A stretch of 58,171 bases of DNA from contig JABURP010000038.1 of assembly GCA_014762645.1 (NCBI GenBank), positions 29,458 through 87,628 on the forward strand. Reading direction: 5' to 3'. Shown in pieces: positions 3 through 55,249 of this stretch. The DNA comes from Crocinitomicaceae bacterium (GTDB lineage Bacteria > Bacteroidota > Bacteroidia > Flavobacteriales_D > Crocinitomicaceae). A program made the position numbers and the translations under genes. The notes under the pieces are model-generated. The model had not been told where the DNA came from and made no database searches. It worked only from the letters and a program-made list of their open reading frames with translations. The first letter of the stretch is position 1, and the number at the start of each line of letters is the position of its first letter.

Positions 3-1163
3 ACACATACCAGTACCCTTACTTCGGTTGATGGTTGTGATTCGATTATTGTGACAACCCTAACGGTCAATCCTACTTACAACCTGAACGAGACGGCCAG
101 TATCTGTCAAGGACAAACCTATACATATCCGGATGGATCAACAGGAACAGTAACCGAAACTCACACCAGTTTACTTGCTTCAGTAGATGGTTGTGACTCA
201 ATTATTGTGACAAATCTTACGGTGAACCCTACTTACAACCTGAACGAGACGGCCAGTATCTGTCAAGGACAAACCTATACATATCCGGATGGATCAACCG
301 GTACAGTTACCGAAACGCATACAAGTGTGTTGACGTCTGTAGATGGATGTGATTCGATTATCGTGACAAATCTTACAGTGAACCCTACTTACAACATGAA
401 CGAGACAGCTAGTATCTGTCAAGGACAAACGTATACATATCCGGATGGTGCAACCGGTACAATTACTGAAACGCATACAAGTGTGTTGACCTCAGTAGAT
501 GGTTGCGATTCGATTATTGTGACAAATCTTACGGTGAACCCTACTTACAACATGAATGAAACAGTCAGTATTTGTCAGGGAGAGACGTACACTTATCCAG
601 ATGGATCAACTGGAACAGTATCTGAAGTTCACACCAGTTTATTAACATCCGTTGATGGCTGTGACAGTACTATTATTACTACACTAGATGTCATTATTGT
701 GGATAATACAGTTACGGTAAATGGATCCACATTGGAAGCGAATGCTACCGGTGCAACCTATCAATGGGTAGTCTGTGATAATGAACTTGCTGCAATTGAC
801 GGAGCAACGAATCAAACTTTTACTCCTTCGTCAGGTGCCGGTAATTATGCGGTTATTGTTACTGAAGGGTCTTGTGTAGATACATCTGATTGTATTTTGT
901 TGGATCCTACAGGGCTGGAAAATGTAGATCCTTACAACATCTCTATTTATCCGAACCCTACAACTGAAGACCTTCATATTTCATGGAATGGAACAATAAG
1001 CTTTGTTAGGATAACTGATGCAAGAGGAAGATTGCTGTACGAATTGAATGTACAAAACACAAAATCTATCGACATTAACGTAGGTCTATACGAAGATGGC
1101 GTGTATTTTATTCATCTTTATACAGATGATGGAATTGTTGTGAAGGATGTGATAAAACAATAA
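3..1163 (+). CDS. T9SS-exported repeat protein, 3' part (5' end outside window)
   Basis: The reading frame is open to the left edge of the window, so this is only the C-terminal part of a larger protein; the GTG at position 51 is not its real start. Four tandem copies of a 52-residue unit are visible, each with SICQGQTYTYPDG followed by a SVDGCDS element, giving two Cys per unit that could form a disulfide. The last copy is diverged. The final ~75 residues, beginning ISIYPNPT and ending in VIKQ, match a type A T9SS C-terminal sorting domain, so the protein is probably exported through the outer membrane and anchored or released at the surface. Repeats of this sort occur in SprB-like adhesins and other Bacteroidota surface proteins; the ligand cannot be read from the sequence. 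Confidence 0.85.
   Translation, partial: THTSTLTSVDGCDSIIVTTLTVNPTYNLNETASICQGQTYTYPDGSTGTVTETHTSLLASVDGCDSIIVTNLTVNPTYNLNETASICQGQTYTYPDGSTGTVTETHTSVLTSVDGCDSIIVTNLTVNPTYNMNETASICQGQTYTYPDGATGTITETHTSVLTSVDGCDSIIVTNLTVNPTYNMNETVSICQGETYTYPDGSTGTVSEVHTSLLTSVDGCDSTIITTLDVIIVDNTVTVNGSTLEANATGATYQWVVCDNELAAIDGATNQTFTPSSGAGNYAVIVTEGSCVDTSDCILLDPTGLENVDPYNISIYPNPTTEDLHISWNGTISFVRITDARGRLLYELNVQNTKSIDINVGLYEDGVYFIHLYTDDGIVVKDVIKQ
57..680 (+). repeat. Four tandem 156-bp coding repeats
   Basis: Copies begin at about 57, 213, 369 and 525, with exact 156-bp spacing (for example aacctgaacg at 81 and 237). Positions 72-142 and 228-298 are identical over 71 bp. The fourth copy is more diverged. The array probably continues to the left of the window. 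The near identity of neighbouring copies suggests recent duplication or gene conversion. Confidence 0.9.
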
Positions 1164-32100: not shown

Positions 32101-35100
32101 ATCCGTAATCACATTTTCAAAACCATTTCCTGAAACACCAATAGTGTTCCCGTTAGAATTGTTCTCCAGGTAAATGCCTTCCATAGTATTCCCCAAGTAA
32201 GAATCATTGTCCTTTGATAAACCAATATTATTTCCAGAGATCGTGGTGTTTGTTGCACCATCCAGGCGAATTCCTACATCACTACTAAAACAAATTACAT
32301 TACCTTCTTCGGCCAACCAGTCACCACCTATATAATTGTTATCCGAACCTACAATCATGATTCCTACCCCATTGGATGTACCTCCAAACACCTGATTTCC
32401 GGATGCTCCGGTTCCCAGAAAATTGTTCCGAATAAAGTTCCCGTTTGAATTGTTTTCTAAACCAATCCCCAACCAGGTATTGCCCGAAATAACATTTTGT
32501 TCATTCAGTGCAGGATTTCCAATATAGTTGTTCGTTGCCTGGTTTAAATAAATGCCTATCAGGTTGCCAAGTGGTGTTTGTCCGTCAGCCAAAATTCCAA
32601 TATTGTTAGAAGACAGATTATTTGAAGTAGATGAAATAATCACGACCCCAGTACTATCGTTTCCACTGATAATATTTCCTTCTCCAGCTGTCCCGCCTAT
32701 CGTGTGGGAACTACCACCGTCGATCACAATTCCAAACGAATTCCCTACAATTGGGCCGATTTCATTGTTTTGAACGTTGTTATTAGATGTATTCAAAATG
32801 GCTACTCCGGTCTGATTACCTGAAATTAAATTTTCATTACCTGCACCTGCGAGTCCTACATAGTTAAACTGGGCACCTGCATCTATACGAACACCGACAG
32901 TATTAGGAATACTTGCAGTTTCGGCAACATTTAAACCGATTGTGTTTCCTAAAACTTGGTTGTTGCTGCTCCCTGCCTCAATTATACTTACACCAATTAT
33001 GTTACCTGATATTACATTTCCTTGATGAGGGTTTGATCCACCGATTGCATTTGCACTCCCGCCATTCCGAATCATAATACCGTCTATCGCATTAGGTACA
33101 GCTGTCATCCCAGAAGTATCAGTACCTATGTAATTATTATATACAAATTGATTGGAAGCGCCGAAAATCTCAATTCCTGTTCCGTTACCACTAATGATAT
33201 TGCCTCCGGCAGAAACATCATTACCGACATAATTGTCTGTTCCGGCATCAGCTTCAAACCTAACTCCAACTGCCTGAACGGCTGGAGCGGTAGCCATGTT
33301 CGTAGCTTTATTAATTCCTATGTAATTGGCTGATATAACATTGTTGTTGGCACCTGTGCTTATCTGAACTCCATACGAAGCATTATCCATGATCACATTA
33401 CCGAAAGTACCCGGAGGCACCTCTCCAATTGTATTGTTAACACACGTGGCACCAGATAATTGAACTCCATTGAGTTGGTTTGAACCCAGACCTACCGTGT
33501 TTCCTAAAACGGAATTATTAGAAGCGTTGTCAATTATAACTCCAGTTTGTACATTACCAGCAATCACATTACCTGCCTGATCAAAATCACCGCCTATTTC
33601 ATTTTCACTCGCTCCCATTGTAACCTGAACACCGATTGGTTGAACATTTAGCGGACTGCCTGCATTATTAGGCCCTATGAAGTTGAATTTTACTTGATTG
33701 GTATCAGAATTTTCAATTATTATTCCACTACCTGAATTACCTGATATCACATTTCTAAAATTAGGATTACCGGATGATGCACCAATTAAATTGGCATCTG
33801 CACCATTTGTCAAACGGATCCCAGTCGCGTTTCCTGCTGGATTCAGTCCATCAGAAGACATCCCAATAAAATTACCAAAGATCGTGTTGTCGTTTGACGC
33901 ATCCAAAATAATGCCTTCAAGCGTATTATTGGAAATAATGTTGTTATAAGCTGAACTGGATGAATTGCTGCCACCAATACTGTTTGAACTTGAATTCAAC
34001 GCACTTATACCAATGTTGTTTGGCCCGGCATTGTCACTGGAATCTAAACCGATTCGATTGCCTAAAATAGTGGTGTTGGTGACACTATTCATTCGTATAC
34101 CATCATTCACACAATTAATAATAGTATTGCCGGTTGCTAAATTTACGTCTCCTATTTGCGTACCTGTTGGCCCATTTAAAAGTTCAATGCCATTTCCATT
34201 TTGGAAAGCTGCTGATCCCGAAATTTCACCTATGTAGTTCTGTCTAATAAATGTGTTGTCTGCTGTTCCAAAGACATTTATACCAGCAGTTCCACTGCCT
34301 ACAATGTGATTTGGTGTAAGTACACCTATTTGCGTAGCATCCGCATCCGTAATATGAATTCCATAAACAGCATTGCCGGCAGCATTTCCTGCACCATCAA
34401 CTCCTATTCTACAATTGTCGATCATGCAGTTATCTGCCAGGTCTGTATTAATCTCAATTCCGTCTTCAAGGTTATTGGCTATAATATTCAGGTATGCTGT
34501 GTTAGATGAACCAACCATTACACTAGCTGCTTCAATATAAATTCCGTCAAGGTTTCCCATACCAGCAAGGCTGTTGTTCACTCCTACTCCAATAAAATTT
34601 CCATCAATTACTGTATTTGAGGAAGTAACATTGATACCGGAAACCGTACTTGCACAGATATAGTTCTCTAAAGGAGATAAGCCACCTATTTGAACCTGGT
34701 GCGTGTTTGTTACAACAATTCCCGTTTCATTAGGCAGTGGAGACATTCCGTTTAGCGTTGTACCAATTCTGTTTGTGGTAATTTTAGTTCCCAAACCTGA
34801 TCCCTCCAATCGAATACCCGCAGATCCAACACCACTGTGAGCGCAAATTTGGTTACCTGAATTGGTAGCAGTACCTCCTATTTCAGTATCTGCACCATTA
34901 ACAACCAGAACTCCATTATTTAAGTTACCTAAGGGTGCTGTTCCATTGACATCCGTTCCGATCATATTACCATATACTGTAGTACTTGAGGAACTAGAAA
35001 TGAAAATACCTTCTGTTAGGTTACCACTAATAATATTTCCTTCACCTGTTGCTATATCCCCACCAATGGTTATTGTACCGCAAGCTTCAAGATAGATTCC

Positions 35101-37557
35101 GACATAATTTCCAAGGGTATCCAATCCAGTTGCATCTAAACCTATCCAATTCCCCTGAACAATATGAGATGATGCATTGTTTAACAGGATACCTGCTCCT
35201 CCTGTAGAATTATTACCCGATATTACATTTCCTGCACCTGCTGAACCAATCACACAGGTAGCAGCTGAACTTTCAATACGTATACCATTATTTGAATTTC
35301 CGACAGCAGCAGTTCCGGCATAATCTGTCCCTATATAATTCCCAATAATTGTAGTAAGCCCCGTTGTCAATTGAACTCTTATACCTTCCTGATTTCCCGA
35401 TACAATATTTGCTTCAGCTGCCGAAACTCCTCCAATTTGATTATTGGCATTTATGTTACTGTTAAACCAAATTCCATCTGGAGTAGAAGCTACGCCTATA
35501 GTACCAGAAGAATCCAATCCAATGAAATTTCCCTGAACAACAGTATTATTGGCTCCATAAAACCAAATGTTTGCTGTATTATTTCCAGAGATAATATTAC
35601 GTGTTTTAGGACCGGATGATCCACCAATTTGAATACCTCCTGAGTTATTCCCTAATTCGATACCATAAGCGTTTGGTGCTAACTGTGTTCCATCATACAT
35701 TACACCAATTTTGTTGTGTTGAATAACACCTGAACTGGCAGCATCTAGTCTAATTCCTGCTGAATTGTGATTTCCAATGACATTCCCTTCTAGGTATTTT
35801 GTTCCTCCTATAACATTAACTGTAGATTCATCAAGGATTCCAATATTCGTACTTACAGCGGATGTAAGGTTATTCATACCATCTGGAGCGATACCGATAA
35901 AATTGCCATAGATTAAATTACCTGAAGCACTAAGTGTAATATTATTTACTCCATTACCAGATATAACATTTCGTTGCCAGTGTTCTCCTCCCCCCACTTG
36001 ATTGCCATCATTTGAGATAAATATTCCATTTTGTCCATTAGGAACAGCAGCAAGCACAGCATCAAATCCAATATCACAACCAAAGACTTTACAATTGCTC
36101 ATGGAGATAGCAATACCATTATTATCAAACCCAGTGATTCGAAGACCTTGAACAATTGATCCGTTAACTCCACCAACTATACTGACTCCGGTTGTTAGCG
36201 TAGTTACGTTATTAATATTTATCGCTGGTTCACCTGGAGTAACTCCTGCAGTCAACGGCGCAGCAGGACCGGGCACAACAGAACCCTGTTGTGAAAAACC
36301 ATCTACAATATAATCTGAGGTTAATACATATCCTGCCGTTGGGGTAATAGCAAGTGGAGGGCCACCTGGAATATCAAATTCTACATAATTAATGGGGTCA
36401 AAACTTAAACTGAGTGCAGCTCCCAATGAACCTACCAGAACACCTCCGCCATTATTTACTACTCGAAGTTGCGTGAATTCACAAGCTCCGGCATCCGGCC
36501 TTCCAGTTGTTATGCCTCCAAATAAAATCCTTGGTGCACCTCGCAAATCTGTGGCTGCTATACCAGATGGGTTACCTTGATCAATAAATGTACTGCCGGA
36601 ATTGACAATCGTAAAATATTTCATGCCAAATCCATCTACCAAAACGGTATTTCTTAAGCCTGGAACAACACCTGTATGGTATTGATCCCCAGCTGTAGTC
36701 CAGCCTCCAAAATCTGATCCTGTATTTTGTTTAAATATGTTTCCTCCATTTGAGATAAAAGAGCAACATGTTGGTTCCATAAGTTGTTCTCCAACTCCAT
36801 TTCCTGCACCAGCATTATTTTGTAAATTCACGGTTGGCCCATTATCTGAAAATAACACCTGGCCCAATCCATTGGAAGATGTGTTTTCATAGAAGGTGTT
36901 ATTCATGACAGTTACCGTAGTATTTCCCTGGACATAAATTGCTCCACCATTATTTGTTGCATTGTTGCCCCAGAAAGTACAGTTTTGAATGAGGGTTTGT
37001 CCACTTCCAGCTACATGAATTGCACCTCCACTATCAGCTTTATTCTGGACAAAAGAACAATTTAAAATTTCAACATTCAAGCCTTGGGTCTCTATAGCAC
37101 CAGCAACCAGGCCCGAATTATCTATTCCATCAAAAAGGCAATGAACAATACGAACAGGTGCACCAGCGTTACCGGCAGATGAGAAAACATTAATGGCTCT
37201 AACACCTGGTGTACCATTGACAAAACCAACATTTTCAATACTGAAACCGGATGAATTTGTGATGTTAAAAAGACTTACTCCCGAACCCCAAGATGCAGAT
37301 GCTACGATTGAACAATGAGCAGCATGTGGTCCCATTAAGCGGACATTGGAAAGACCATCTACTGCAATTGGTGTTATAAGTTCAATGGTTCCTTTTACAT
37401 CTATGAGGACGGTGTCACCTGAATTGGCTACCTGAAACGCTCCTCGCAAGGTTCCCTGGCCTGAATCTCCTAAATCTTTTACTAAAATTACTTTCGCATA
37501 ACTCTCAACAGAGAGTACACATAAAGCAGTAATTAGTAGGTACTTCAGAGTTCTCAT
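29143..37557 (-). CDS. Giant beta-helix adhesin with CHU_C tail (T9SS cargo)
   Basis: I chose ATG at 37557 (MRTLKYLLITALCVLS), giving 2804 residues; a TTG at 37566 is the longest frame. The mature start (DSGQGTLRGAFQVANSGDT) and residues to ~340 form a pectate-lyase-like right-handed beta-helix. From about 370 to 2080 run about 25 helix repeats marked by N-x-I-G (NFIGLDSSGT, NYIGTDYAGT). Residues ~2230-2700 hold SprB-like and Ig-like repeats, and the last ~90 (SPNNDGTNDIWIIDG, RWGDKL) are a CHU_C type B sorting domain. It is predicted to be a large surface adhesin or passenger exported with the PorP/SprF protein encoded next. No polysaccharide-lyase active site is evident to me. Confidence 0.9.
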   Translation of the reverse strand: MRTLKYLLITALCVLSVESYAKVILVKDLGDSGQGTLRGAFQVANSGDTVLIDVKGTIELITPIAVDGLSNVRLMGPHAAHCSIVASASWGSGVSLFNITNSSGFSIENVGFVNGTPGVRAINVFSSAGNAGAPVRIVHCLFDGIDNSGLVAGAIETQGLNVEILNCSFVQNKADSGGAIHVAGSGQTLIQNCTFWGNNATNNGGAIYVQGNTTVTVMNNTFYENTSSNGLGQVLFSDNGPTVNLQNNAGAGNGVGEQLMEPTCCSFISNGGNIFKQNTGSDFGGWTTAGDQYHTGVVPGLRNTVLVDGFGMKYFTIVNSGSTFIDQGNPSGIAATDLRGAPRILFGGITTGRPDAGACEFTQLRVVNNGGGVLVGSLGAALSLSFDPINYVEFDIPGGPPLAITPTAGYVLTSDYIVDGFSQQGSVVPGPAAPLTAGVTPGEPAININNVTTLTTGVSIVGGVNGSIVQGLRITGFDNNGIAISMSNCKVFGCDIGFDAVLAAVPNGQNGIFISNDGNQVGGGEHWQRNVISGNGVNNITLSASGNLIYGNFIGIAPDGMNNLTSAVSTNIGILDESTVNVIGGTKYLEGNVIGNHNSAGIRLDAASSGVIQHNKIGVMYDGTQLAPNAYGIELGNNSGGIQIGGSSGPKTRNIISGNNTANIWFYGANNTVVQGNFIGLDSSGTIGVASTPDGIWFNSNINANNQIGGVSAAEANIVSGNQEGIRVQLTTGLTTIIGNYIGTDYAGTAAVGNSNNGIRIESSAATCVIGSAGAGNVISGNNSTGGAGILLNNASSHIVQGNWIGLDATGLDTLGNYVGIYLEACGTITIGGDIATGEGNIISGNLTEGIFISSSSSTTVYGNMIGTDVNGTAPLGNLNNGVLVVNGADTEIGGTATNSGNQICAHSGVGSAGIRLEGSGLGTKITTNRIGTTLNGMSPLPNETGIVVTNTHQVQIGGLSPLENYICASTVSGINVTSSNTVIDGNFIGVGVNNSLAGMGNLDGIYIEAASVMVGSSNTAYLNIIANNLEDGIEINTDLADNCMIDNCRIGVDGAGNAAGNAVYGIHITDADATQIGVLTPNHIVGSGTAGINVFGTADNTFIRQNYIGEISGSAAFQNGNGIELLNGPTGTQIGDVNLATGNTIINCVNDGIRMNSVTNTTILGNRIGLDSSDNAGPNNIGISALNSSSNSIGGSNSSSSAYNNIISNNTLEGIILDASNDNTIFGNFIGMSSDGLNPAGNATGIRLTNGADANLIGASSGNPNFRNVISGNSGSGIIIENSDTNQVKFNFIGPNNAGSPLNVQPIGVQVTMGASENEIGGDFDQAGNVIAGNVQTGVIIDNASNNSVLGNTVGLGSNQLNGVQLSGATCVNNTIGEVPPGTFGNVIMDNASYGVQISTGANNNVISANYIGINKATNMATAPAVQAVGVRFEADAGTDNYVGNDVSAGGNIISGNGTGIEIFGASNQFVYNNYIGTDTSGMTAVPNAIDGIMIRNGGSANAIGGSNPHQGNVISGNIIGVSIIEAGSSNNQVLGNTIGLNVAETASIPNTVGVRIDAGAQFNYVGLAGAGNENLISGNQTGVAILNTSNNNVQNNEIGPIVGNSFGIVIDGGSSHTIGGTAGEGNIISGNDSTGVVIISSTSNNLSSNNIGILADGQTPLGNLIGIYLNQATNNYIGNPALNEQNVISGNTWLGIGLENNSNGNFIRNNFLGTGASGNQVFGGTSNGVGIMIVGSDNNYIGGDWLAEEGNVICFSSDVGIRLDGATNTTISGNNIGLSKDNDSYLGNTMEGIYLENNSNGNTIGVSGNGFENVITDNNTTGIYIEGSSNNTIQNNFIGNDHLGGQGSVTNGVNDQQNGIALGPGASNNTVTGLNVISGNTNAGLGILGVGAESNTVAGNFFGVDLSGNVSYPNGIVNVYIGDSAKFNLIGGNTPSQKNIIGGDVPNMVIITDAGTDSNQVAGNFIGLGIDESTTYNSNFGVIIQTNAKKNVIGGGLPGEGNSITDFSFSGILIAAAQQNSILGNRIGIKPDGSPAPIDSAGVSLKGGDNTWIGAFLPGSDSMNVITNCNSGVEIATFGIANNTYGSVVGGNSIYNNTNQGIDINGDHTVLPIDTANNNVFANNGEIDRCEIISAWNCGSSGNTHIGFKFYASNMIAGYHIEVYKNPNPDPSGYGEGEIYLGDYIFNPGSPYDTIAIDLGQVLPVGTVITATITGVLGNTSEFSLQDTVTNPPVFNLPTTIDETCLGANDGQIEIIAPEAYYFSIDGFLTSTYGNEGDTLTGLLPGGYTVGAMYLNGCVLTQNVTLQAGPPLPFDYEVFPDTCGMGVGAVVFDTIPTNGAGGTGAYEYSYDSGTNYGGSISLGGLFADTLGLVLTDTTLGCYSSIVNVEITEVNDVVDETFYFSDFCPGNTAVYDSVATTGGWWDLGPGAGTATIDSLTGVLSNTTVGNSYDVIYTVGVCEEKDTITVTAANFDDPSFTYPDFCFGTTPTITTVTPGGTWSLTLGNGVIDTASGAIVGMPGQYGVVYTTQGTCAGIDTNYVQMLAQPNAPVINATQTIYCLDDTLEPLSTNADVNLTYEWYTDPALTNPVATGTTFTPLSIATGDNYIYLTSTDTNGCKSQADSVNYLSPDLSGMYAGPDMFVCMGSTIILEAFGGNSYYWEYSEQLVDDQTLSNPSAYINASEEFIVIITDVNGCAVTDTLDVVLLPQDSCYVETYNAFSPNNDGTNDIWIIDGIEGFPENQVYIYNRWGDKLKTLINYDNSTVFWDGTNNGNKPVPAGTYFYVVEVGGTRNQAGWVQVMK

Positions 37558-37698
37558 AAACAACAAGTAGTATTCTTAGCTATTGACGATAGCCGAACAT
37601 CCAACGTTGGTGTATCGCATAACTTATTTCATTCATACGCCTCTAATTTAACTATTTAAACGCTCAAAACTAAGGGAAAAGAAAATTCAAAAGGAAGT

Positions 37699-43983: not shown

Positions 43984-44570
43984 TGACTACTAAAAAGCAC
44001 AATAGAACATTTCTAAATACATTCCTTTCGGAACGTAAGCAAGTTGGTGCCGTGGCCCCTAGTTCGCGCTTTTTAGTAAATGCAATGTGCAATAAAATTG
44101 ATTTTGAAAGAGCTGACTGTATCGTTGAACTCGGACCAGGAACCGGTGTTTTTACAGAAGAGCTTCTTGCACGGGCAAAAGATGATTGTAAAATCATACT
44201 CATTGAATTGAACCGTACCTTTCATAAAGTCCTGAAGGATAGATTTAAGAACACTGACAGTCGGCTAATTATCCTGAACCGATCTGCGGATGAAATTGAA
44301 GATATCGTCAAAGAACACAATATTAATGATGTAGATGCAGTCTTGTCTTCACTGCCTTTGACAGTTATTCCTGAGATCATTAAAAAGAGGATAATAATTG
44401 GCAGTTACAATGTGCTGCGTCAAGGCGGCGTTTATGTTCAGTATCAATATTCCCTGAACGCACGAAGATTACTGGAACTGAAATACGGCAAACTTAAAGT
44501 TGGATTTGTTCCCTTTAATATTCCGCCGGCTTTTGTGTATACAGGAGTTAAGGAGTTGATGGAGAACTAA
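43983..44570 (+). CDS. Class I SAM methyltransferase (phospholipid N-methyltransferase-like)
   Basis: The SAM-binding motif VELGPGTGVFTEELL is at residues 48-62, with motif II near LIELNRTFHK (74-83). The leader (RTFLNTFLSERKQVGAVAPSS) resembles PmtA-type phospholipid N-methyltransferases and rRNA adenine dimethylase relatives. Residues ~115-125 (VLSSLPLTVIP) replace the catalytic NPPY-type element, which favours the lipid-methylating branch. It would be cytoplasmic, perhaps membrane-associated. The start codon shares a base with the dihydroorotase stop. Its last 23 bases overlap the convergent secreted-protein gene at 44548. Confidence 0.8.
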   Translation: MTTKKHNRTFLNTFLSERKQVGAVAPSSRFLVNAMCNKIDFERADCIVELGPGTGVFTEELLARAKDDCKIILIELNRTFHKVLKDRFKNTDSRLIILNRSADEIEDIVKEHNINDVDAVLSSLPLTVIPEIIKKRIIIGSYNVLRQGGVYVQYQYSLNARRLLELKYGKLKVGFVPFNIPPAFVYTGVKELMEN

Positions 44571-45543
44571 GTTCTGTTCCTCCCCATTCTATTACGACAA
44601 ACCCATCTCTATTTAATGGTTCATCAGGAATCGTTCGGTTCGGTACTGTGTCTATCTCGAAATCCAAACCACAAAAAACCAGATACACCCGGCGAATAAC
44701 ATCCGGTTTTGGAGTAACCTCAATAGTTCCGATAGTATTATCGTATTCTTCATCTAACATGAAATACACGAGATTATAGGTGTGTCGTTGCATCCGAGGT
44801 GCCCAATAGGTTATAAAATCGGCTGACTCTTTAGCGTTAAGCCCGAACATGGCTAATTCCTTTTCAAGAAAACTGACAACGGTGTCGGAATTTATGAATA
44901 GTCCGTAAGTTCCCAAATCAGAAACGGGAAAAAATCCAAACTGTTGATACTGTATAGGTCCTTCCCAAAAAAGATACGGGTACTCACGGTCTCCCTGCTT
45001 TAATGTTCCATCTGGTGACGCGGTAATATCCCAGCCACCGTTATATTCCGGATAGGAAGTTGTAATCTCGATTTTATCATCCATTTTAACCGTTACGTCA
45101 GTCTCTTTCTCCGGATATAGGTAGATTACTGGTTTCTCCGCTTCATAAATTACGCCCTGGCCTGCTCTGTCACTTGTTATAAAATTGATGGTCACCACAT
45201 GCTGACTTTGGAAATTGTAGTTCCAACAAACGATTTCCTTGTACTTTTCATGATAGAAGAAAATGGCAGTATCTCGGGCACTCACTTTCATTTCGTAATA
45301 CCCTGTATCGTTGGAAAGTGTGTGACTTTTTCGATTCAAGGTGGCGATTATTCCACCTGAAACAAATTCCTCTGAATACCCTTCCCAAACGCGACCTTTT
45401 ACAACACATTGCCCTTCAGGCACTGATTTGTCCTCAACATCTGATACCACATAGTAGGTATCTACCAGAATGGATTCTCCGAAGCCAATTGTTCCCCAAA
45501 GCAATGCTACTACAAGAATGATTTTATTTTTCGACATGGTCAT
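44548..45543 (-). CDS. Tandem secreted KPVIYLY/EWGG-family protein, copy 1 (distal)
   Basis: A signal peptide (MTMSKNKIILVVALLWG) is followed by a carboxypeptidase-regulatory-like beta domain (about 45-120; EGQCVVKGRVW and SNDTGYYEMKVSARDT). The conserved C-terminal domain starts at KPVIYLYPEKETDV and has TTSYPEYNGGWDI, REYPYLFWEG, FLEKELAMFGLN, ADFITYWAPRM, IEVTPKPDVIRRVYLVF and the final FVVIEWGGT. The domain is not one I can name; similar sequences seem widespread in bacteria. No sorting tail is seen. ATG at 45543 or 45537 overlaps the end of copy 2, suggesting translational coupling. Confidence 0.72.
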   Translation of the reverse strand: MTMSKNKIILVVALLWGTIGFGESILVDTYYVVSDVEDKSVPEGQCVVKGRVWEGYSEEFVSGGIIATLNRKSHTLSNDTGYYEMKVSARDTAIFFYHEKYKEIVCWNYNFQSQHVVTINFITSDRAGQGVIYEAEKPVIYLYPEKETDVTVKMDDKIEITTSYPEYNGGWDITASPDGTLKQGDREYPYLFWEGPIQYQQFGFFPVSDLGTYGLFINSDTVVSFLEKELAMFGLNAKESADFITYWAPRMQRHTYNLVYFMLDEEYDNTIGTIEVTPKPDVIRRVYLVFCGLDFEIDTVPNRTIPDEPLNRDGFVVIEWGGTELSSPSTP

Positions 45544-46534
45544 GAGTTAAAAATTCACAATTTGGTTTTTGAGTACCTCCCCATTCTACAAGCGTAAATC
45601 CTTCCCGATTAAATGACGGCAAGTGCTGGGATTCGTAGGATCTGCCGAGCTCATCCTGATCAAAGAGTGTAAAAATCATGTAAACCCTGCGCATATTTTC
45701 GGGGGCGGGATTCACCGCCATAGCTGAAATATGTGCTTCGTAGTCATCATCAATTACAAACTGAATGAAGGCATAATCCTTTTGAAGAAGTTTAGGTAAC
45801 CAAAATGTAATAAAATCGGTTTGTTCCGTTCTGTTTAACCCAAGACGCGTCAGAGAATTTTCAAGGAATTGTACAGCAGTATCGGTTTTGATATAAGAGC
45901 CATAAGGCCTGCTGTTCATCTTGTGATACTGAAGGTCAGCTGTTTCAGCTTCCCAGAATAAGTAGGGGTATTCCTTACCTTCTGATTGAATAACGTTTCC
46001 ACTTACATTAACTTCCCAGCCTTGATCCTGATTATACTGCGGATAAGTAAATACGATCTCTCCTTTAGGCTGAAATTTAATCGCTACGGTTTCGTCTTTT
46101 TCTGAATAAAGGTAGATTACTGGCTTATCCATAATCATCATGGAATAATCATCTACCAGGTAAAAGTTGATTTCAAATACATAGCGCTCTTTGAACTCAT
46201 ATTTCCAAATAACATGTTCAGAAAGTTCAGATTTAAAGGCAAAAAGCGAGGTATCATCTGCATCCAGCAATAATTCGTAATATCCTGAAGAATCCGTATG
46301 TGTGAACGCTTTTCTATCCGGAGTGCTTACCAGGACATTAGCAATAGGGTTCCCATTAGAATTATCTTTAAGTACATAGCCCGTCACTTTACACTTTCCT
46401 TCCGGTAAATCGTCCTGTGGATATATTTTGATCACCTCATGTCTACTTGGAGCGATTAATTTTTCAGGTATTCCTCTCCCGTATGAAGATGTTGTTAAAG
46501 CTGTGACAGCAAGGATGAACAGTAAGGATTTCAT
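45524..46534 (-). CDS. Tandem secreted KPVIYLY/EWGG-family protein, copy 2
   Basis: I chose ATG at 46534 because it begins a signal peptide (MKSLLFILAVTALTTSSYG); the longer frame to 46564 starts with GTG inside copy 3. The layout is the same as the other copies: regulatory-like beta domain (KCKVTGYVLKDNSNGNPIAN), then KPVIYLYSEKDETV, FTYPQYNQDQGWEV, KEYPYLFWEAE, FLENSLTRLGLN, TDFITFWLPKL, VNPAPENMRRVYMIF and GFTLVEWGGTQ. A 15-residue tail follows the EWGG motif. The three genes lie head-to-tail with small or no gaps, so they are one operon. Function unknown. Confidence 0.72.
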   Translation of the reverse strand: MKSLLFILAVTALTTSSYGRGIPEKLIAPSRHEVIKIYPQDDLPEGKCKVTGYVLKDNSNGNPIANVLVSTPDRKAFTHTDSSGYYELLLDADDTSLFAFKSELSEHVIWKYEFKERYVFEINFYLVDDYSMMIMDKPVIYLYSEKDETVAIKFQPKGEIVFTYPQYNQDQGWEVNVSGNVIQSEGKEYPYLFWEAETADLQYHKMNSRPYGSYIKTDTAVQFLENSLTRLGLNRTEQTDFITFWLPKLLQKDYAFIQFVIDDDYEAHISAMAVNPAPENMRRVYMIFTLFDQDELGRSYESQHLPSFNREGFTLVEWGGTQKPNCEFLTHDHVEK

Positions 46535-46544
46535 AACATTTAAT

Positions 46545-47525
46545 TTACTCAATAAGACTTCCACCCCATTCTACAACCGTAAAGCCTTTTCGTTCAAAAG
46601 AAGTTAATTCCTGTTCCTCTAAATCGAGGCCAGAATTCGGTGTATCAAGCGTTGCGCACAACATAAACACTCTTCTCATAGATTCCGGTTTTGGTGTAAT
46701 GTCAAGAGATGCTATTTGATCTTCATAGTCATCATCCACTACAAAATGAATCAGTGCAAACCTTCCTTTTTTCAGGATAGGCGCCCAATAGGTGATAAAA
46801 TCGGCTTTTTCTTTATCCAGGAATCCCAGTAGGGTAAGTTTCTCTTCTAAAAATGGAACAACAGATCCTGCGTCCACCATAAATCCGGTCATCTTTCCAT
46901 CTACAACAGGAAACGATAGTTTAGTCTCAGATTCCGCTTCCCAAAATAGATACGGATATTCCTTCTCTCCTATTTTAACACCACCTGTTTTCAAGACTTC
47001 TATATCCCATCCATCCTCATACCTGGGATAGGTAAATATGAATGTCCCTTTCGGGTCAAGCCGTACCGAAGCTTTTAAGTTTTTATCTGCGTACAAATAA
47101 ATCACAGGTTTCCGCTTCACCTGTTTATCGTACTCTTCCCTTACCTGATTCATGTAAACCTGCACAGCCACTCTGTGTCGGTCCTTAAATATGTAATCTT
47201 CAATCACCACTTCATTCCACCCTTTCTTGTAGAAATAAACAACGGAATCAGTAGCTGCTAATTCAACCCTGAACAAGCCATCCTTAGTGGTTCTCACCCA
47301 TGTATTTGAGGATGTACAACCAACTTTTACAGCAACAAGTGGATTATCACTGGAGAACATACTGACGCGGCCTTCCAGAATAAATTTACCTGAAGGAATT
47401 GATTCATCCAGTGTATCTGAAACAATTGAATATTCTAATGGAATGGGGCCGAGATCTTCCAAAGCAAAAACGGGTTTATTCGCTATTATCGTTAGCGTTA
47501 CAATACAAAACAGGATTGATTTCAT
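46545..47525 (-). CDS. Tandem secreted KPVIYLY/EWGG-family protein, copy 3 (proximal)
   Basis: A signal peptide (MKSILFCIVTLTIIANKPVFA) precedes a beta domain (residues ~45-125) that resembles a carboxypeptidase-regulatory unit (GKFILEGRVSMFSSDNPLVA). The conserved C-terminal domain (~138-322) has RKPVIYLYADKNLK, FTYPRYEDGWDI (164-175), KEYPYLFWEAE (188-198), VPFLEEKLTLLGF, ADFITYWAPIL, ITPKPESMRRVFML and GFTVVEWGG (314-322). It is the first gene of the trio, 48 bp downstream of the CarboxypepD-like gene at 47574, which may belong to the same transcript. Secretion to the periplasm or outer membrane is inferred from the signal peptide. No known function. Confidence 0.72.
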   Translation of the reverse strand: MKSILFCIVTLTIIANKPVFALEDLGPIPLEYSIVSDTLDESIPSGKFILEGRVSMFSSDNPLVAVKVGCTSSNTWVRTTKDGLFRVELAATDSVVYFYKKGWNEVVIEDYIFKDRHRVAVQVYMNQVREEYDKQVKRKPVIYLYADKNLKASVRLDPKGTFIFTYPRYEDGWDIEVLKTGGVKIGEKEYPYLFWEAESETKLSFPVVDGKMTGFMVDAGSVVPFLEEKLTLLGFLDKEKADFITYWAPILKKGRFALIHFVVDDDYEDQIASLDITPKPESMRRVFMLCATLDTPNSGLDLEEQELTSFERKGFTVVEWGGSLIE

Positions 47526-49643: not shown

Positions 49644-49835
49644 CTAGTTTAAACTGTAGTTGCCGATCATGTCAATAGGCTCAACGCGCGCATCTTCTGC
49701 CTGACCGGAAATGATATCCAATAATTCTGCGACTTCGGTAATGGAAAGTTTGGTACGTGCACCCATTACTCTATGTCTGTTCAATTTTTCCTGAGCCGAT
49801 CTGATGATCTTGTTCTTTATGTCATCTAAATTCAT
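49644..49835 (-). CDS. Hypothetical small protein, 63 aa
   Basis: An unrecognised small cytoplasmic protein, mostly helical and amphipathic (MNLDDIKNKIIRSAQEKLNR, then LSITEVAELLDIISGQ). No signal peptide, Cys or membrane segment. A terminator follows it on its own strand, and 233 bp separate its start from the large GAF gene in the other direction. That intergenic stretch (49836-50068) has no other gene and presumably contains both promoters. Expression is plausible because of the terminator. Confidence 0.6.
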   Translation of the reverse strand: MNLDDIKNKIIRSAQEKLNRHRVMGARTKLSITEVAELLDIISGQAEDARVEPIDMIGNYSLN

Positions 49836-50068: not shown

Positions 50069-53000
50069 ATGATCGAAACTACCGAAGCTATTGAGACGAT
50101 AGACGCCTCCAACAAGGAAGCATGGGAAATCGTTAGGGCTGAACCAGTAAAAACACTGGAACTCGCTCAGGAGAGTCTTGCCCGTGCAATTGAGTTGGAT
50201 TACCCAAAAGGTATTGGCTGGGCTCATGGCAATATAGGTGCGGCGTATACCTGGATGTCTGATTATGAAAAGGCTTTAGATGCCTGCTTCAAATCTATCG
50301 AAGTATTACTTGACATTGAGGATTACCAGCATGCCAGTCAAATCGAGTATTATCTTTCCATCATTTTCTATTTCCTTGGTGATTTTGAAAAGCAAATGAC
50401 GCATTCAAAAGCGTCCTATGATCTTGCCGAAAGAATTAATGATGAATTTGGTATGGCCAATGCCCTAAACGGAATTGGAACGGCTCTCTACACCAATGAA
50501 CGTAACGAAGAAGCACTGGAATCACTGCAGAAAGGATTGAAGATTGCTCAAAAAGTGAATGACAATCCGCTTCTTGCACGAATTAATGACGGAATTGGTC
50601 AGACGTACTATAACTTAAAACAATACGAAAAAGCATTGACCTATAAATTCAATGCGCTCGAACTGGTTAAAGCATCTGGTGTAAAGCAAACAGAATCATA
50701 CGCACAGGACGGAATTGGTGAAATCTATTCAAAAAAAGGGGATTATCCCAAAGCACTTGAGCATTTTCAGAACTCCTACAATATCAGAAAAGAAATGGGG
50801 TTCAGGGATGGCATGGCCAAGACGAAGATCCACATGGCAGAAACCTATCGTCTTGCGGGTGACAACCTCTCAGCAGTACAGGAATACAAAGATGCCCTGG
50901 CAATAGGGCAAGAACTGGAATCTAAAGAAATTGAATATAAATCCCATTTCGGCCTTTCTGAGTTATACGAAGACATGGGGAACCTTACCCTCTTCGTTAA
51001 GCACTTTAAATCTTATCATGCCGCCATGCAGGCGTTTAACGTTGAAAAAGAAGATAAGAAAGTTAAGGCTTTTGAACTCAAGGGAAGATTAGATCAAATA
51101 CAAAAAGAAAAGGAACAACTCGAACAAAAAAACGAGCAACTAGAATCGTATTTTAGAGATGTTCAGACACTCAGTAGCATTGGGCATGAAATCACATCAA
51201 CCCTGAACATTGAGGACATCTTTCAAATCATTTACGAGCGCATCAACTCATTGATGGATGCCACCGGAATCTTTATTGGAATCTGCAATCACGAAGAAAA
51301 TAAATTGCAGGTAAAACTCGCCATAGACAACGGACAAAAAGACGAATATTTTGAGCATTCTCTGGATGACAGAAAATTAGCAAATTACGCCGTCAAAACA
51401 GGAAAGGACGTCCACATTAATGATTATCAAAAGGAAATTAAAGACTACTACGAAGAAGGTGAAGATATCCTGCATACCGCACCAAATTCAGTGGTGATTA
51501 TACCGTTAACAGTTAAGGATAAAATTATTGGTGTATTGTTTGCCCAAAGTGGTAAAACAAATGCATTCTCCCAGCACCATGTTAACATCCTAAAATCATT
51601 TGCCAGTTATTTGTCCATTGCTTTGGATAACGCAACGCTCTATGAGCAAATGGATTCCAAAGTAAAGGAACGAACGGATGAGCTTGAAATCACCTATAAA
51701 AACTCAGAATTACTCAATAAAATTGGTCAGGAACTCATTTCAACGTTAGATTTTGAAGCAGTTTTTGAACGTTTTTATAAAAATGTCAATCAGCTGATGG
51801 ATGCCACCATTTTTGGAATTCGAATTCTTTCGGATGACAAAAAATCTGTCAACTACAAATATGAATACGAAAAAGGAAAACGGCTTGGCGACATTAGCAT
51901 TCCTATGGATAATGACAATAATTATTCGGTTGTCTGTATTAAAAGGAATGAGGTTATCCTTATCAATGACAATATTAAAGAACACAAGAAGTGGGTGGAT
52001 GAAATTATGGTGGTTGACGGAGAAATGCCTCATTCCCTCATTTTTGTCCCACTCATTCACGACGGTGAAGTTCTCGGAGTAATTAGCGTTCAATCTTTTG
52101 AGAAAAGTGCGTACAACAATTACCACGTAACAATTGTTAAGACCCTTGCCCAATACACTGTTCTCGCTCTTCAAAATGCAAGACGCTATGAGCTGATGGA
52201 GGCAAAAGTAATGGAGCGTACTTCCGAAATCACCAAAACGTACGAAAACACTAAGCTTTTAAGTGAAATTGGTAAGAGTATCACATCTCAATTGTCTGTT
52301 GAGCAAATTATCAAGATAACCTACGACAACATTAACAAGTTGATGGATGCTGAAGGTTTTGGTATCGGTATCCATATAAAAGACGAAGGGGCAATTGATT
52401 TTCCAGGATATATTGAGAGCGGTAAAAGGCTTGAAGGAGGATATTACAAGTTAGATGAACCCAACCGTTTGGCCTGTGTTTGCTTTAATCAAGACACGGA
52501 TATCATTATCAATAATTTTGAGGAAGAACACGAAAAGTGGATTGATAATTACGTTGCGCCAAAGATGGGTAAATCAGTTAGTTCTTTGATTTATCTTCCT
52601 ATACGTTCAAAAGGTGAAAAAATTGGTGTAATTACTGTTCAAAGTTTTAGCAACAATTCCTATTCTGACTACGAAGTAAACATGCTCCGTTCCATTGGTG
52701 TTTATACGGCGATAGCCCTTGACAATGCTACGCTCTACGAGAACATGGAGGACATGGTTAAGGAGCGTACAGAAGAAGTAGTTAGGAAGAAAGAGGAGAT
52801 TGAACAGACGTATGAAAACACCCGATTAATCTCACAAATCAATAAAGCTATATCCAGAAGTATTACGATCGAAGCGTTGATTGATAGCGTATATGAGAAT
52901 TGTAACAACCTAATGGATGCTACCGGGTTTGGAATCGGAATATATGATTCTGAACGGGAACGTATCATCATGAAAGGATACATTGAAAAAGGTGAAAAAC

Positions 53001-55249
53001 TCCCCGATTTTGAATATGATGTAAATGATGAACGTTTGGCTCCCTGGTGCTTTAATAATCAGCAAGAAATTTTTATCTCTGATTATAGCAAGGAGTACGA
53101 CAAGTATATTGCTGGAATGCAAGCACCTGTTTCCGGTAGAGATTCAGCATCCATAATTTATATCCCACTCTTCTCTAAAGAAAAGATTGTTGGAATATTG
53201 ACGGTTCAAAGCTTCGAAAAGCATGCCTACACCGATTATCACATGGACATCCTTCGTGGCCTGGCGGCTACCATTGCTGCAACCATTGAAAATGCCATGT
53301 TGTACGAAAGCCTTGAAGAAAAGGTAAAGGAACGTACAGCTGAAGTCGTGGCTCAAAAAGAACAAATTGAAAAAGCGGCGGAAAATACGCGATTACTGAG
53401 TGAAATTGGTAAAGACATTGCTGCAGAGTTATCTTCCGCCGGAATTATTGCTAAAGTATACGAGAGTATTAACAGTATGATGGATGCCAGTGTATTTGGA
53501 ATTGCACTTTACAAACCTGAGTCCCATACCCTACTCTTTACCGGTGCATTTGAAAATGGTCAGGCTTTGGATGACTTTTCTTATAGCGTAGATGAAGAAA
53601 AAATTGCCTCGATCTGTTTTCTAAAAGAACAGGAAATTGTCATTAACGACTGGAAAGAGGAATACAAAAAGTACGTTTCAAAGGAATATGATGCGAGTGC
53701 TGGTGAAATGCCTGAATCCATGATCTACCTGCCGTTGATCTCCAAGGATCGAAAAATTGGTGTAATTACGGTACAGTCATTTAATAAGGACAGTTACGAC
53801 CAGTATCACCTGGATATTTTAAGAACTCTTTCTCTTTACGTGGCCAGTGCGCTTGAAAACGCTAGTCTGTACGAAGATATGGAGGATCGCGTAAAAGAAC
53901 GTACTGTTGAAATAGAAAAGGCCTATGAGGATACCAAACTCCTTAGTCAGATTTCCAAAGCCATAGTTGAGTCTCTTGAAGTAGAGTCGATTATCAGCAG
54001 GGTTTATAAAAGCATTAACACGTTGTTAGATGCTACCTGTTTTGGTATTGGAATTTATAATGAAGATACCCAAACAGTTGATATGCCTGGATTTATTGAA
54101 AACGGCAAGGAACTGGATGGAGTGAGTTTTGATATGACCAATCCAAATCAGCTGGCTGCGGTCTGTTTTAATAATGATCAAGAAATCTTAATCTCCGATT
54201 TTGTAAAGGAATATAAAGAGTATGTTGCCGATATAGAAGCTCCGGTTAAGGGAGAAGGAACAAGTTCTATTGTTTACATCCCGTTGAGAACCAAAGACAA
54301 AGTTGTTGGAGTTTTAACGGTTCAAAGCTATGAAACTGCTGTTTATTCAGAGTATCACATGAGTTTGTTGCGTAGTCTGGCTACTACTGTTGCTACAGCT
54401 ATTGACAATGCCATGCTCTACGAAAATCTTGAAGACAAAGTGCGTGAACGAACGTTGGAACTCTCGCATCAAAAAGAGATTATTGAAGAGAAGAATAAGC
54501 ATATTACTGATTCAATACGGTACGCAAAACGGATTCAAGACGCCACATTACCAAGCATTGACTTGGTGCGTAGTTATTTGAAGGACTCCTTTGTATTGTT
54601 TAAACCAAAAGACATTGTATCCGGGGATTTTTACTGGGTAGAACAAGTTGATGACACCATCCTTTTTGCTGTGGTTGATTGTACAGGTCATGGCGTACCA
54701 GGAGCATTTCTAAGTTTGATTGGTCACAACAGTCTTAATCAGATTGTGAACGAGTTAGGTATTATGAAGCCTTCTGAAATTCTGTTTGAATTGGATAAGA
54801 TTGTATTCAAGACGCTACAGAACAATTTAGAGCACACGAATATCAAGGATGGCATGGACATGGCCATTTGTTCGCTTAATCTCAATACAAAACATCTGGA
54901 GTTTGCCGGTGCCTACAACCCACTCTACCTCATTCGTGACAATGAACTTACCGAAGTGAAAGGTGATAAGCTCGCTATTGGTAGCGGCGAAGTGCAAAAT
55001 CAGTATAAAAATTCAGGAATACAATTACAGGAGGGAGACCGAATCTATTTATTTAGTGACGGATACGCCGATCAGTTTGGTGGACCAAAAGGGAAGAAAT
55101 TCAAATATTCGCAATTTAAGGACCTACTTCTAAAAGTTCACCAAAAACCAATGATGGAGCAGCATAAATTACTCAATCATTACATTGAGGCCTGGCAAGG
55201 TGATCTGGAGCAACTGGATGACGTGTGTGTAATCGGGGTGAGAATTTAA
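50069..55249 (+). CDS. TPR, six-GAF, PP2C (SpoIIE-type) phosphatase, 1726 aa
   Basis: Cytoplasmic protein with no signal peptide or membrane helix. Residues ~20-340 are TPR units (ARINDGIGQTYYNLKQYEKA). Six GAF domains follow, starting near 373, 554, 736, 926, 1115 and 1297, each with an NLMDATGFGIGI-type element (the LMDA Leu at 395, 576, 758, 948, 1137 and 1319). They repeat at 181-190 residues, separated by coiled coils (KVKERTDELEITYKN). The C-terminal ~240 residues are a SpoIIE/RsbU-type phosphatase with metal-site Asp D1520 (SGDFYW), D1537 (VVDCTGHG), D1664 (FSDGYAD) and D1718. It is probably a signal-regulated Ser/Thr phosphatase; its target anti-sigma or other partner is not encoded nearby. 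Monocistronic in this window. Confidence 0.88.
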   Translation: MIETTEAIETIDASNKEAWEIVRAEPVKTLELAQESLARAIELDYPKGIGWAHGNIGAAYTWMSDYEKALDACFKSIEVLLDIEDYQHASQIEYYLSIIFYFLGDFEKQMTHSKASYDLAERINDEFGMANALNGIGTALYTNERNEEALESLQKGLKIAQKVNDNPLLARINDGIGQTYYNLKQYEKALTYKFNALELVKASGVKQTESYAQDGIGEIYSKKGDYPKALEHFQNSYNIRKEMGFRDGMAKTKIHMAETYRLAGDNLSAVQEYKDALAIGQELESKEIEYKSHFGLSELYEDMGNLTLFVKHFKSYHAAMQAFNVEKEDKKVKAFELKGRLDQIQKEKEQLEQKNEQLESYFRDVQTLSSIGHEITSTLNIEDIFQIIYERINSLMDATGIFIGICNHEENKLQVKLAIDNGQKDEYFEHSLDDRKLANYAVKTGKDVHINDYQKEIKDYYEEGEDILHTAPNSVVIIPLTVKDKIIGVLFAQSGKTNAFSQHHVNILKSFASYLSIALDNATLYEQMDSKVKERTDELEITYKNSELLNKIGQELISTLDFEAVFERFYKNVNQLMDATIFGIRILSDDKKSVNYKYEYEKGKRLGDISIPMDNDNNYSVVCIKRNEVILINDNIKEHKKWVDEIMVVDGEMPHSLIFVPLIHDGEVLGVISVQSFEKSAYNNYHVTIVKTLAQYTVLALQNARRYELMEAKVMERTSEITKTYENTKLLSEIGKSITSQLSVEQIIKITYDNINKLMDAEGFGIGIHIKDEGAIDFPGYIESGKRLEGGYYKLDEPNRLACVCFNQDTDIIINNFEEEHEKWIDNYVAPKMGKSVSSLIYLPIRSKGEKIGVITVQSFSNNSYSDYEVNMLRSIGVYTAIALDNATLYENMEDMVKERTEEVVRKKEEIEQTYENTRLISQINKAISRSITIEALIDSVYENCNNLMDATGFGIGIYDSERERIIMKGYIEKGEKLPDFEYDVNDERLAPWCFNNQQEIFISDYSKEYDKYIAGMQAPVSGRDSASIIYIPLFSKEKIVGILTVQSFEKHAYTDYHMDILRGLAATIAATIENAMLYESLEEKVKERTAEVVAQKEQIEKAAENTRLLSEIGKDIAAELSSAGIIAKVYESINSMMDASVFGIALYKPESHTLLFTGAFENGQALDDFSYSVDEEKIASICFLKEQEIVINDWKEEYKKYVSKEYDASAGEMPESMIYLPLISKDRKIGVITVQSFNKDSYDQYHLDILRTLSLYVASALENASLYEDMEDRVKERTVEIEKAYEDTKLLSQISKAIVESLEVESIISRVYKSINTLLDATCFGIGIYNEDTQTVDMPGFIENGKELDGVSFDMTNPNQLAAVCFNNDQEILISDFVKEYKEYVADIEAPVKGEGTSSIVYIPLRTKDKVVGVLTVQSYETAVYSEYHMSLLRSLATTVATAIDNAMLYENLEDKVRERTLELSHQKEIIEEKNKHITDSIRYAKRIQDATLPSIDLVRSYLKDSFVLFKPKDIVSGDFYWVEQVDDTILFAVVDCTGHGVPGAFLSLIGHNSLNQIVNELGIMKPSEILFELDKIVFKTLQNNLEHTNIKDGMDMAICSLNLNTKHLEFAGAYNPLYLIRDNELTEVKGDKLAIGSGEVQNQYKNSGIQLQEGDRIYLFSDGYADQFGGPKGKKFKYSQFKDLLLKVHQKPMMEQHKLLNHYIEAWQGDLEQLDDVCVIGVRI

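Follow-up and report, generated by a model that had tools for sequence, protein, structure and literature searches.

Sensor-coupled PP2C phosphatases of partner switches are an already known kind of protein. The closest to the protein described here is SiaA of the Pseudomonas aeruginosa SiaABCD system, which has the nearest PP2C domain by sequence and fold, the same spacing of metal-site residues and a KVxERT helix just before the PP2C domain. Our protein differs from SiaA by TPR repeats and six GAF domains in place of SiaA's own N-terminal part and by the lack of a membrane-type hydrophobic stretch; moreover, its contig is without SiaB or SiaC and its genome without a GGDEF domain. RsbZ of Clostridioides difficile, which combines a tandem GAF unit with a PPM phosphatase of the general stress response, can be likened to it by description, although RsbZ has one GAF pair instead of three and no TPR repeats are mentioned for it. 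PMC12143880 deals with coiled-coil control of PPM phosphatases by various sensors and presents a predicted model of the tandem-GAF protein RsbZ.

The tandem GAF-A/GAF-B units of PDE2, PDE5, PDE6 and CyaB2 likewise consist of two unlike GAF domains in a fixed order with a long joining helix, whereas our protein carries several dyads in a row, has a phosphatase output and lacks an NKFDE-type motif. YF1-type photoreceptor histidine kinases share with it links that differ by whole heptads; PMC6798134 describes the linker lengths of photoreceptor kinases as heptad-dependent and proposes that consecutive sensors are joined by coiled coils. In our protein, the stepped links join successive GAF domains of one array, and the output is a phosphatase. 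DUF1987 is described as widespread in PMC8457831, whose authors hope that their data help to elucidate DUF1987 in other bacteria, and PP2C-STAS pathways are described for Campylobacterota in PMC9239204. The titles and abstract starts among the open-access literature matches listed contained nothing about a GAF array of this type and nothing on an expanded SiaABC network in Bacteroidota.

Here, we describe a gene on a 58,171-nt stretch of contig JABURP010000038.1 of a Crocinitomicaceae bacterium (referred to as the window), whose host genome (4.23 Mb, 128 contigs) is 98.99% complete. The encoded protein follows an odd-even pairing rule of its GAF domains, which is unusual.

Results

Domain organisation of the six-GAF phosphatase

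The gene consists of a single reading frame with an ATG start that fills the ORF and encodes 1726 amino acids; the open frame retrieved by the whole-genome search comprises 1734 residues from stop to stop, with zero internal stops. Pfam searches of the 1726-residue protein identified TPR_12, six GAF_2 stretches and SpoIIE. Each GAF unit also exceeded the GAF_2 cut-off when excised and searched singly (6/6, 45.7-67.7 bits versus 28.6), and the C-terminal domain belongs to the SpoIIE/PP2C family PF07228 with 77-81 bits versus a Pfam cut-off of 25. The original prediction had named fewer than six GAF folds or a frameshift dividing the frame into two genes as grounds for doubt; six domains were returned, and the uninterrupted frame rules out two genes. 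Pfam TPR matches fall within about residues 51-307, with TPR_12 matching as five stretches in residues 1-364. A scan for membrane-type hydrophobicity revealed no 19-residue stretch above a Kyte-Doolittle value of 1.7, so that the protein looks cytoplasmic, as had been proposed. The features are compiled in Table 1.

Table 1. Features of the six-GAF phosphatase gene (positions in the window)
Feature	Position	Strand	Basis
Whole gene: TPR - six GAF - SiaA-like PP2C phosphatase, 1726 aa	50069..55249	+	Pfam, ORF
N-terminal TPR region, residues 1-330, limits approximate	50069..51058	+	Pfam TPR
Helical stretch between TPR region and GAF1, residues 331-367	51059..51169	+	AlphaFold helix, residues 337-377
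GAF1, odd place, class A, first unit of dyad 1	51170..51661	+	
GAF2, even place, class B, second unit of dyad 1	51713..52207	+	
GAF3, odd place, class C, first unit of dyad 2	52259..52756	+	
GAF4, even place, class D, second unit of dyad 2	52829..53323	+	
GAF5, odd place, class E, first unit of dyad 3	53396..53890	+	
GAF6, even place, class D, second unit of dyad 3	53942..54439	+	
Helix from GAF6 end to PP2C, residues 1428-1493, candidate transmission helix	54350..54547	+	AlphaFold; constant GAF-to-PP2C gap
SiaA-like PP2C phosphatase domain, residues 1467-1726; acidic residues D1520, D1537, D1664, D1717	54467..55246	+	

The six-copy repeat is visible already in the DNA, with start-to-start distances of 543, 546, 570, 567 and 546 nt, which correspond to 181-190 codons and agree with the 181-190 residues given in the original prediction. 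Its view of the GAF domains as internal duplications is borne out by this repeat and by pairwise identities of 34-53% between the units at the protein level. These values indicate that the duplications are old; a recent duplication is ruled out by a DNA identity of only 57-65%. The motifs said to be shared by the units held only in part: LMDA is replaced by MMDA in GAF5 and LLDA in GAF6, and QSF by QSG in GAF1 and QSY in GAF6. The KVKERT linker is present but not specific, as KVQERT occupies the corresponding position in P. aeruginosa SiaA.

The gene mnmA is located next upstream in the window and in the related genomes G001, G002, G003, G010 and G025, and it was not found in the fetched stretch of G022. 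A 63-aa ORF (window 49644-49835, minus strand) lies upstream of the six-GAF gene and divergent from it. This ORF is kept upstream at full length in G001, G002, G003 and G022 and partly in G010 and G025, and it had no match at the loci L125, L127 and L129. Three tandem paralogous ORFs (44548-47525, minus strand) have matches near the six-GAF gene in four relatives, with copy numbers that are uncertain as the fetched stretches end there. The window also contains a 2807-aa ORF (29143-37566, minus strand).

GAF domains are arranged in odd-even dyads

A scan of genome contigs with the single window protein as query gave no matches; with alignment A1, it yielded at least 12 loci among the matches listed. 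Eight of these (L123-L130) carry these GAF domains and/or the phosphatase, and four (L131-L134) are weak partial matches belonging to other groups. L123, L124 and L128 were taken as identical with the proteins of G010, G022 and G003 and counted once. The final comparison comprised 21 proteins, namely the window protein, relatives taken as orthologs and six two-GAF paralogs. G045 was retained though it is without the TPR part, and the PP2C domain of L126 is cut by a contig end. All counts exclude L130, which lies at a contig edge, and L014/L027 of G055, whose frame is interrupted by a stop and which has two strong GAF domains and a weak one; L013 (G037, two GAF domains; L026 is its duplicate) was used neither for the tree nor for the links. 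The contig-edge protein G045b with three GAF domains was used for the 73 links described below, outside the even count and the tree of 92 units. Further GAF proteins, e.g. G003:C6:66511, G006:C237, G027:C55, G002:C214 and G045:C69, lie outside this analysis.

All 21 proteins contain an even number of GAF domains, which is 2, 4, 6 or 8. Six GAF domains occur in 9 of the 21 proteins, in at least two families, and are thus not unique to the window genome: orthologs with six were found in G001, G002, G003, G010, G022, G044, L125 and L126, and other relatives range from two (L129) and four (L127, G006, G027, G045) to eight (G025). On a tree calculated from the TPR and PP2C parts of 14 proteins without the GAF domains, the number changes at least four times, in even steps throughout. 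The even-number rule reflects few independent events; the heptad and parity rules are stronger.

In the best tree obtained for the 92 GAF units, a single tree with weak support (93/46) at its deepest forks, the odd/even label changes twice and the position itself 23 times. Shuffling the label within proteins gave a mean of 30.9 changes with a minimum of 21 (200 shuffles), flipping it within dyads a mean of 30.7 with a minimum of 20 (300 flips), and two other two-way splits of the positions required 13 and 18 changes. On this tree, units therefore shift along the array and hardly ever between odd and even places. The six GAF domains of the window protein are three repeated odd-even dyads.

The behaviour of whole dyads can be followed in several relatives. 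In L125/L126, unit 3 is the sister of unit 5 and unit 4 that of unit 6; in G025, units 5 and 7 both belong to class E and units 6 and 8 to class D. Units 3-4 of L127 match units 5-6 of G044, and L127 is without a dyad matching G044 units 3-4; L129 consists of classes A and B only. Class D, which always occupies even places, branches among the odd classes. Raw sequence identity gave a less strict picture: of 535 best matches at other positions, 404 retain parity, against 222 expected, and 131 cross it. Only two alignment positions separated odd from even units under a loose rule, neither of them cleanly.

Links between GAF domains change by heptads

The links were measured from an Asn at the end of a GAF unit (present in 95/95 units) to a mostly-Ile position at the start of the next one. 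All 73 links in 22 proteins have lengths of 31 (35 links), 38 (37 links) or 45 residues (one link, from G045b), without exception; those of the window protein are, in order, 31, 31, 38, 38 and 31 residues long. As a control, the distance inside the 92 GAF units takes every value from 151 to 156, with no steps. The alignment-based lengths replace those from domain envelopes, in which a scatter of one or two residues was seen. Measurement by regular expression left 15 links without anchors and returned off values of 32, 32 and 36, which are due to misplaced anchors, and the 42 of G045b. The gap between the last GAF domain and PP2C is constant in 14/14 proteins.

AlphaFold monomer models of GAF5-GAF6-PP2C and GAF1-GAF2, beginning at residues 1100 and 336, had mean pLDDT values of 80.7 and 82.3 and pTM values of 0.44 and 0.49, respectively. 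Parts of the former match solved GAF and PP2C structures (Foldseek, VIA-align), and the latter has the helix/strand order of GAF domains. In these monomer models, unbroken helices of 57 residues run across both modelled links, and a 66-residue helix, within which pLDDT dips to 56-66, leads into the PP2C domain. The links and the spine are probably a coiled coil. Tandem GAF-A/GAF-B proteins were among the top Foldseek and VIA-align matches for the GAF part; superposition of a dyad with the PDE5 tandem GAF (Z 22.0, 322 residues) had an rmsd of 10.6, which indicates a fit of the domains and not of the overall geometry. According to PMC1592074, signalling helices precede PP2C domains, and the prokaryotic inter-GAF coils known in 2006 are antiparallel, which calls for caution with a parallel model.

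Parity could merely record the history of the array if two-unit blocks were duplicated or lost a few times with no selection on pairing. Tandem duplication of such a block yields parity by itself, and the minimum of four count changes would all be even with a chance of about 1/16 if odd steps were as likely as even ones. We consider this explanation rather unlikely, as several separate events, those in L125/L126, G025, L127 and L129, keep whole dyads and all 73 links change by heptads only. It is also unlikely that the GAF domains form a mostly structural rod in which only one or two units bind ligands and the additional dyads serve as nearly neutral spacers drifting in number. The copy number of 2-8 among relatives and the shuffling of classes along the array would agree with such drift; the order inside the dyads is kept, however, the same number of six recurs in separate families, and invariant residues are present in every GAF unit of seven orthologs.

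The NKFDE motif is typical of cyclic-nucleotide-binding tandem GAF domains of the PDE/CyaB type. The pattern N[KR]-5..30-F-3-DE had no match in the 1726-residue protein, and on the basis of this motif the GAF domains were not assigned to that type. A Cys at GAF alignment column 77 is found in 76 of the 92 units of the 21 proteins and is absent from all eight class A units. This nearly conserved residue hints at a possible ligand or redox site.

The phosphatase domain is SiaA-like

A phmmer search of the PDB with the PP2C domain returned the SiaA entry 6k4e with an E value of 5e-44 over 273 residues, followed by RssB with 0.005. The NCBIfam SiaA model NF038263 matched the domain with 238 bits over model positions 384-657; the whole protein scored 234 bits against the SiaA equivalog cut-off of 700, the match being confined to the C-terminal part. 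Structural alignment of the PP2C model with VIA-align, in which absence from the list does not exclude a family, gave for SiaA a Z score of 29.2 over 238 residues (2.5 Å, 34% identity) and lower Z scores for RssB (22.0) and Rv1364c (21.4). The SpoIIE/RsbU-type phosphatase originally predicted is thus confirmed as a SpoIIE/PP2C domain, and an assignment to the RsbU type is ruled out by the greater similarity to SiaA in sequence and fold. The metal-site Asp residues are kept as stated, and the spacings D1520-D1537 and D1664-D1717 equal those of D457-D474 and D600-D653 in SiaA (numbering from PMC7647112). The genome's own RsbU-like protein on C93 showed the opposite behaviour, matching Rv1364c, RssB and, weakly, SpoIIE but not SiaA.

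A profile seeded with the window PP2C domain matched 43 ORFs in the fetched stretches of the same genome, including one 60-residue piece, one contig-edge ORF and the RsbU-like one, and Pfam SpoIIE gave 43 matches in the genome. Judged by these matches, the window protein appears to be one of about 40 related phosphatases in its Bacteroidota genome. GAF domains of the window type were found among these PP2C ORFs only in the window protein and in a second protein, encoded on C43, with two GAF domains. At another locus of the genome (L100, C7:9990-20416), five genes with a window-type PP2C domain follow each other on the same strand.

Candidate partners are encoded elsewhere in the genome

Profile searches for SiaC, DUF6272, STAS and HATPase_c_2 detected none on the window contig; for these families, the original statement that no partner adjoins the gene is right. 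The genome encodes 12 SiaC (PF09345) and 8 SiaB-type DUF6272 (PF19788) domains, all off the window contig, and none of 14 control genomes was positive for either family. The partners of the window phosphatase are probably encoded elsewhere in the genome, with these proteins as candidates. One of the SiaC proteins could be aligned with the P. aeruginosa SiaC structure over the NTSS stretch containing T68; at the T68 position, 11 of the 12 SiaC sequences have Thr or Ser and one has Ile, as judged by eye. One SiaB-like protein passes the SiaB family cut-off (166.7 versus 85 bits), and one SiaC protein lies below the SiaC equivalog cut-off (98.5 versus 150 bits).

No GGDEF domain was found in the genome at E 0.001, while 8 of the 14 control genomes were positive, which rules out a c-di-GMP output as in P. 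aeruginosa. The operon expected of a SiaA equivalog, which unites siaB, siaC and siaD, the last of these encoding a diguanylate cyclase, has no counterpart here, given a contig without SiaB and SiaC and a genome without GGDEF. Four of the 12 SiaC genes are located within 5 kb of a phosphatase gene, two of them near the same one; the nominal p of 0.026 is weak, and the cases are not independent.

Several arrangements of the putative partner genes were noted. At L083 (C93:42058-43016), a SiaB-like and a SiaC-like gene form a pair directly followed by another gene, which resembles coaE; the best SiaC and DUF6272 matches are neighbours in many relatives too. The ORFs L086 (C14:614-1687), L094 (C94:25955-27040) and L095 (C4:9328-10395) contain two DUF6272 domains per chain, and frames of 340-395 aa suggest such double chains in relatives also.

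Phosphatase and SiaC numbers correlate among related genomes

Gene numbers were compared in 59 related genomes including our own, with kinship handled by genus means (42) only. SiaC is present in 52 of these genomes, SpoIIE in 56 and DUF6272 in 53. In 54 of the 59 genomes, one SpoIIE match with an E value of at most 1.7e-35 lies in a frame of 391-437 aa resembling that of the RsbU-like protein, which was compared with the PDB for our own genome only; the SpoIIE number minus one was therefore used. This number correlated with that of SiaC (Spearman 0.84; partial on genome size 0.74; genus means 0.86) and of DUF6272 (0.71; partial 0.55). For STAS, whose counts include long, transporter-sized frames, the values were 0.33 and 0.12 (p 0.36). 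Restriction to the 51 genomes with a completeness of 90% or more gave partial correlations of 0.76 for SiaC and 0.22 for STAS. Because the 59 genomes are related, all these correlations are inflated.

Both phosphatase and SiaC occur in 49 of the 59 genomes, phosphatase only in one, SiaC only in three and neither in six. G006, G027 and G022 have at least 43, 35 and 35 SpoIIE matches, these counts of the richest genomes being possibly lower bounds, versus 2, 2 and 3 SiaC, and G006 and G027 have one DUF6272 each. Any link between phosphatases and SiaC would thus be many-to-few. In a phylum-wide sample, SiaC was found in 4 of 89 genomes including our own, which is too sparse for a correlation.

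It is very unlikely that the phosphatase instead acts on an RsbV-like STAS anti-anti-sigma factor and thereby frees a sigma factor from an RsbW-like kinase, as related phosphatases of other bacteria do according to PMC12143880: the genome does encode a stand-alone RsbW-like kinase (C2, 132 aa) and two stand-alone STAS proteins, which are possible alternative partners, but STAS numbers do not follow phosphatase numbers when genome size is accounted for, the window domain is nearest to SiaA, and a separate phosphatase of the genome matches Rv1364c and RssB but not SiaA, with a frame of this kind in most of the related genomes.

Discussion

We consider it fairly probable that a dyad-built and probably coiled-coil sensor rod sets the activity of a SiaC phosphatase in a SiaA/SiaB/SiaC-type switch. 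The single ORF, the six GAF domains, the SiaA-like domain, the dyads, the heptad links and the co-occurrence with SiaC were obtained from sequence and computation; a dimer, register-based signalling, the direction of control, SiaC as substrate, ligands and a role of the TPR region are inferred. The protein would be a soluble sensor phosphatase whose three odd-even GAF dyads follow one another along a spine that is mainly helical and probably a parallel coiled coil. We propose that, with links in whole heptads, signals from any dyad stay in a common helical register. The TPR end is probably a docking site for a protein. Binding of a ligand or partner along the rod would change the twist or packing of the spine, and the helix from GAF6 to PP2C would then move the catalytic switch helices and turn on the dephosphorylation of a SiaC-type phosphoprotein. 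SiaB-type kinases would phosphorylate this protein at the Thr or Ser matching SiaC T68, and the many phosphatases of the genome would converge on a smaller number of SiaC proteins.

The known target of SiaC is a GGDEF cyclase. As none was found in the window genome, the output of SiaC cannot be a GGDEF cyclase of this genome. More tentatively, the GAF dyads may be exchangeable cassettes on a register-locked coiled-coil rod, with many such phosphatases acting on a SiaC/SiaB switch that works without GGDEF and has another SiaC output. A lineage could then add, drop or swap whole sensor pairs with the coupling kept.

The results point to a large SiaA/SiaB/SiaC-type network in uncultured Bacteroidota, with about 40 phosphatases and 12 SiaC domains in one genome. 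If the proposed mechanism is true, long sensor arrays would evolve with signal transfer intact by keeping their sensors in odd-even pairs and their links in heptads.
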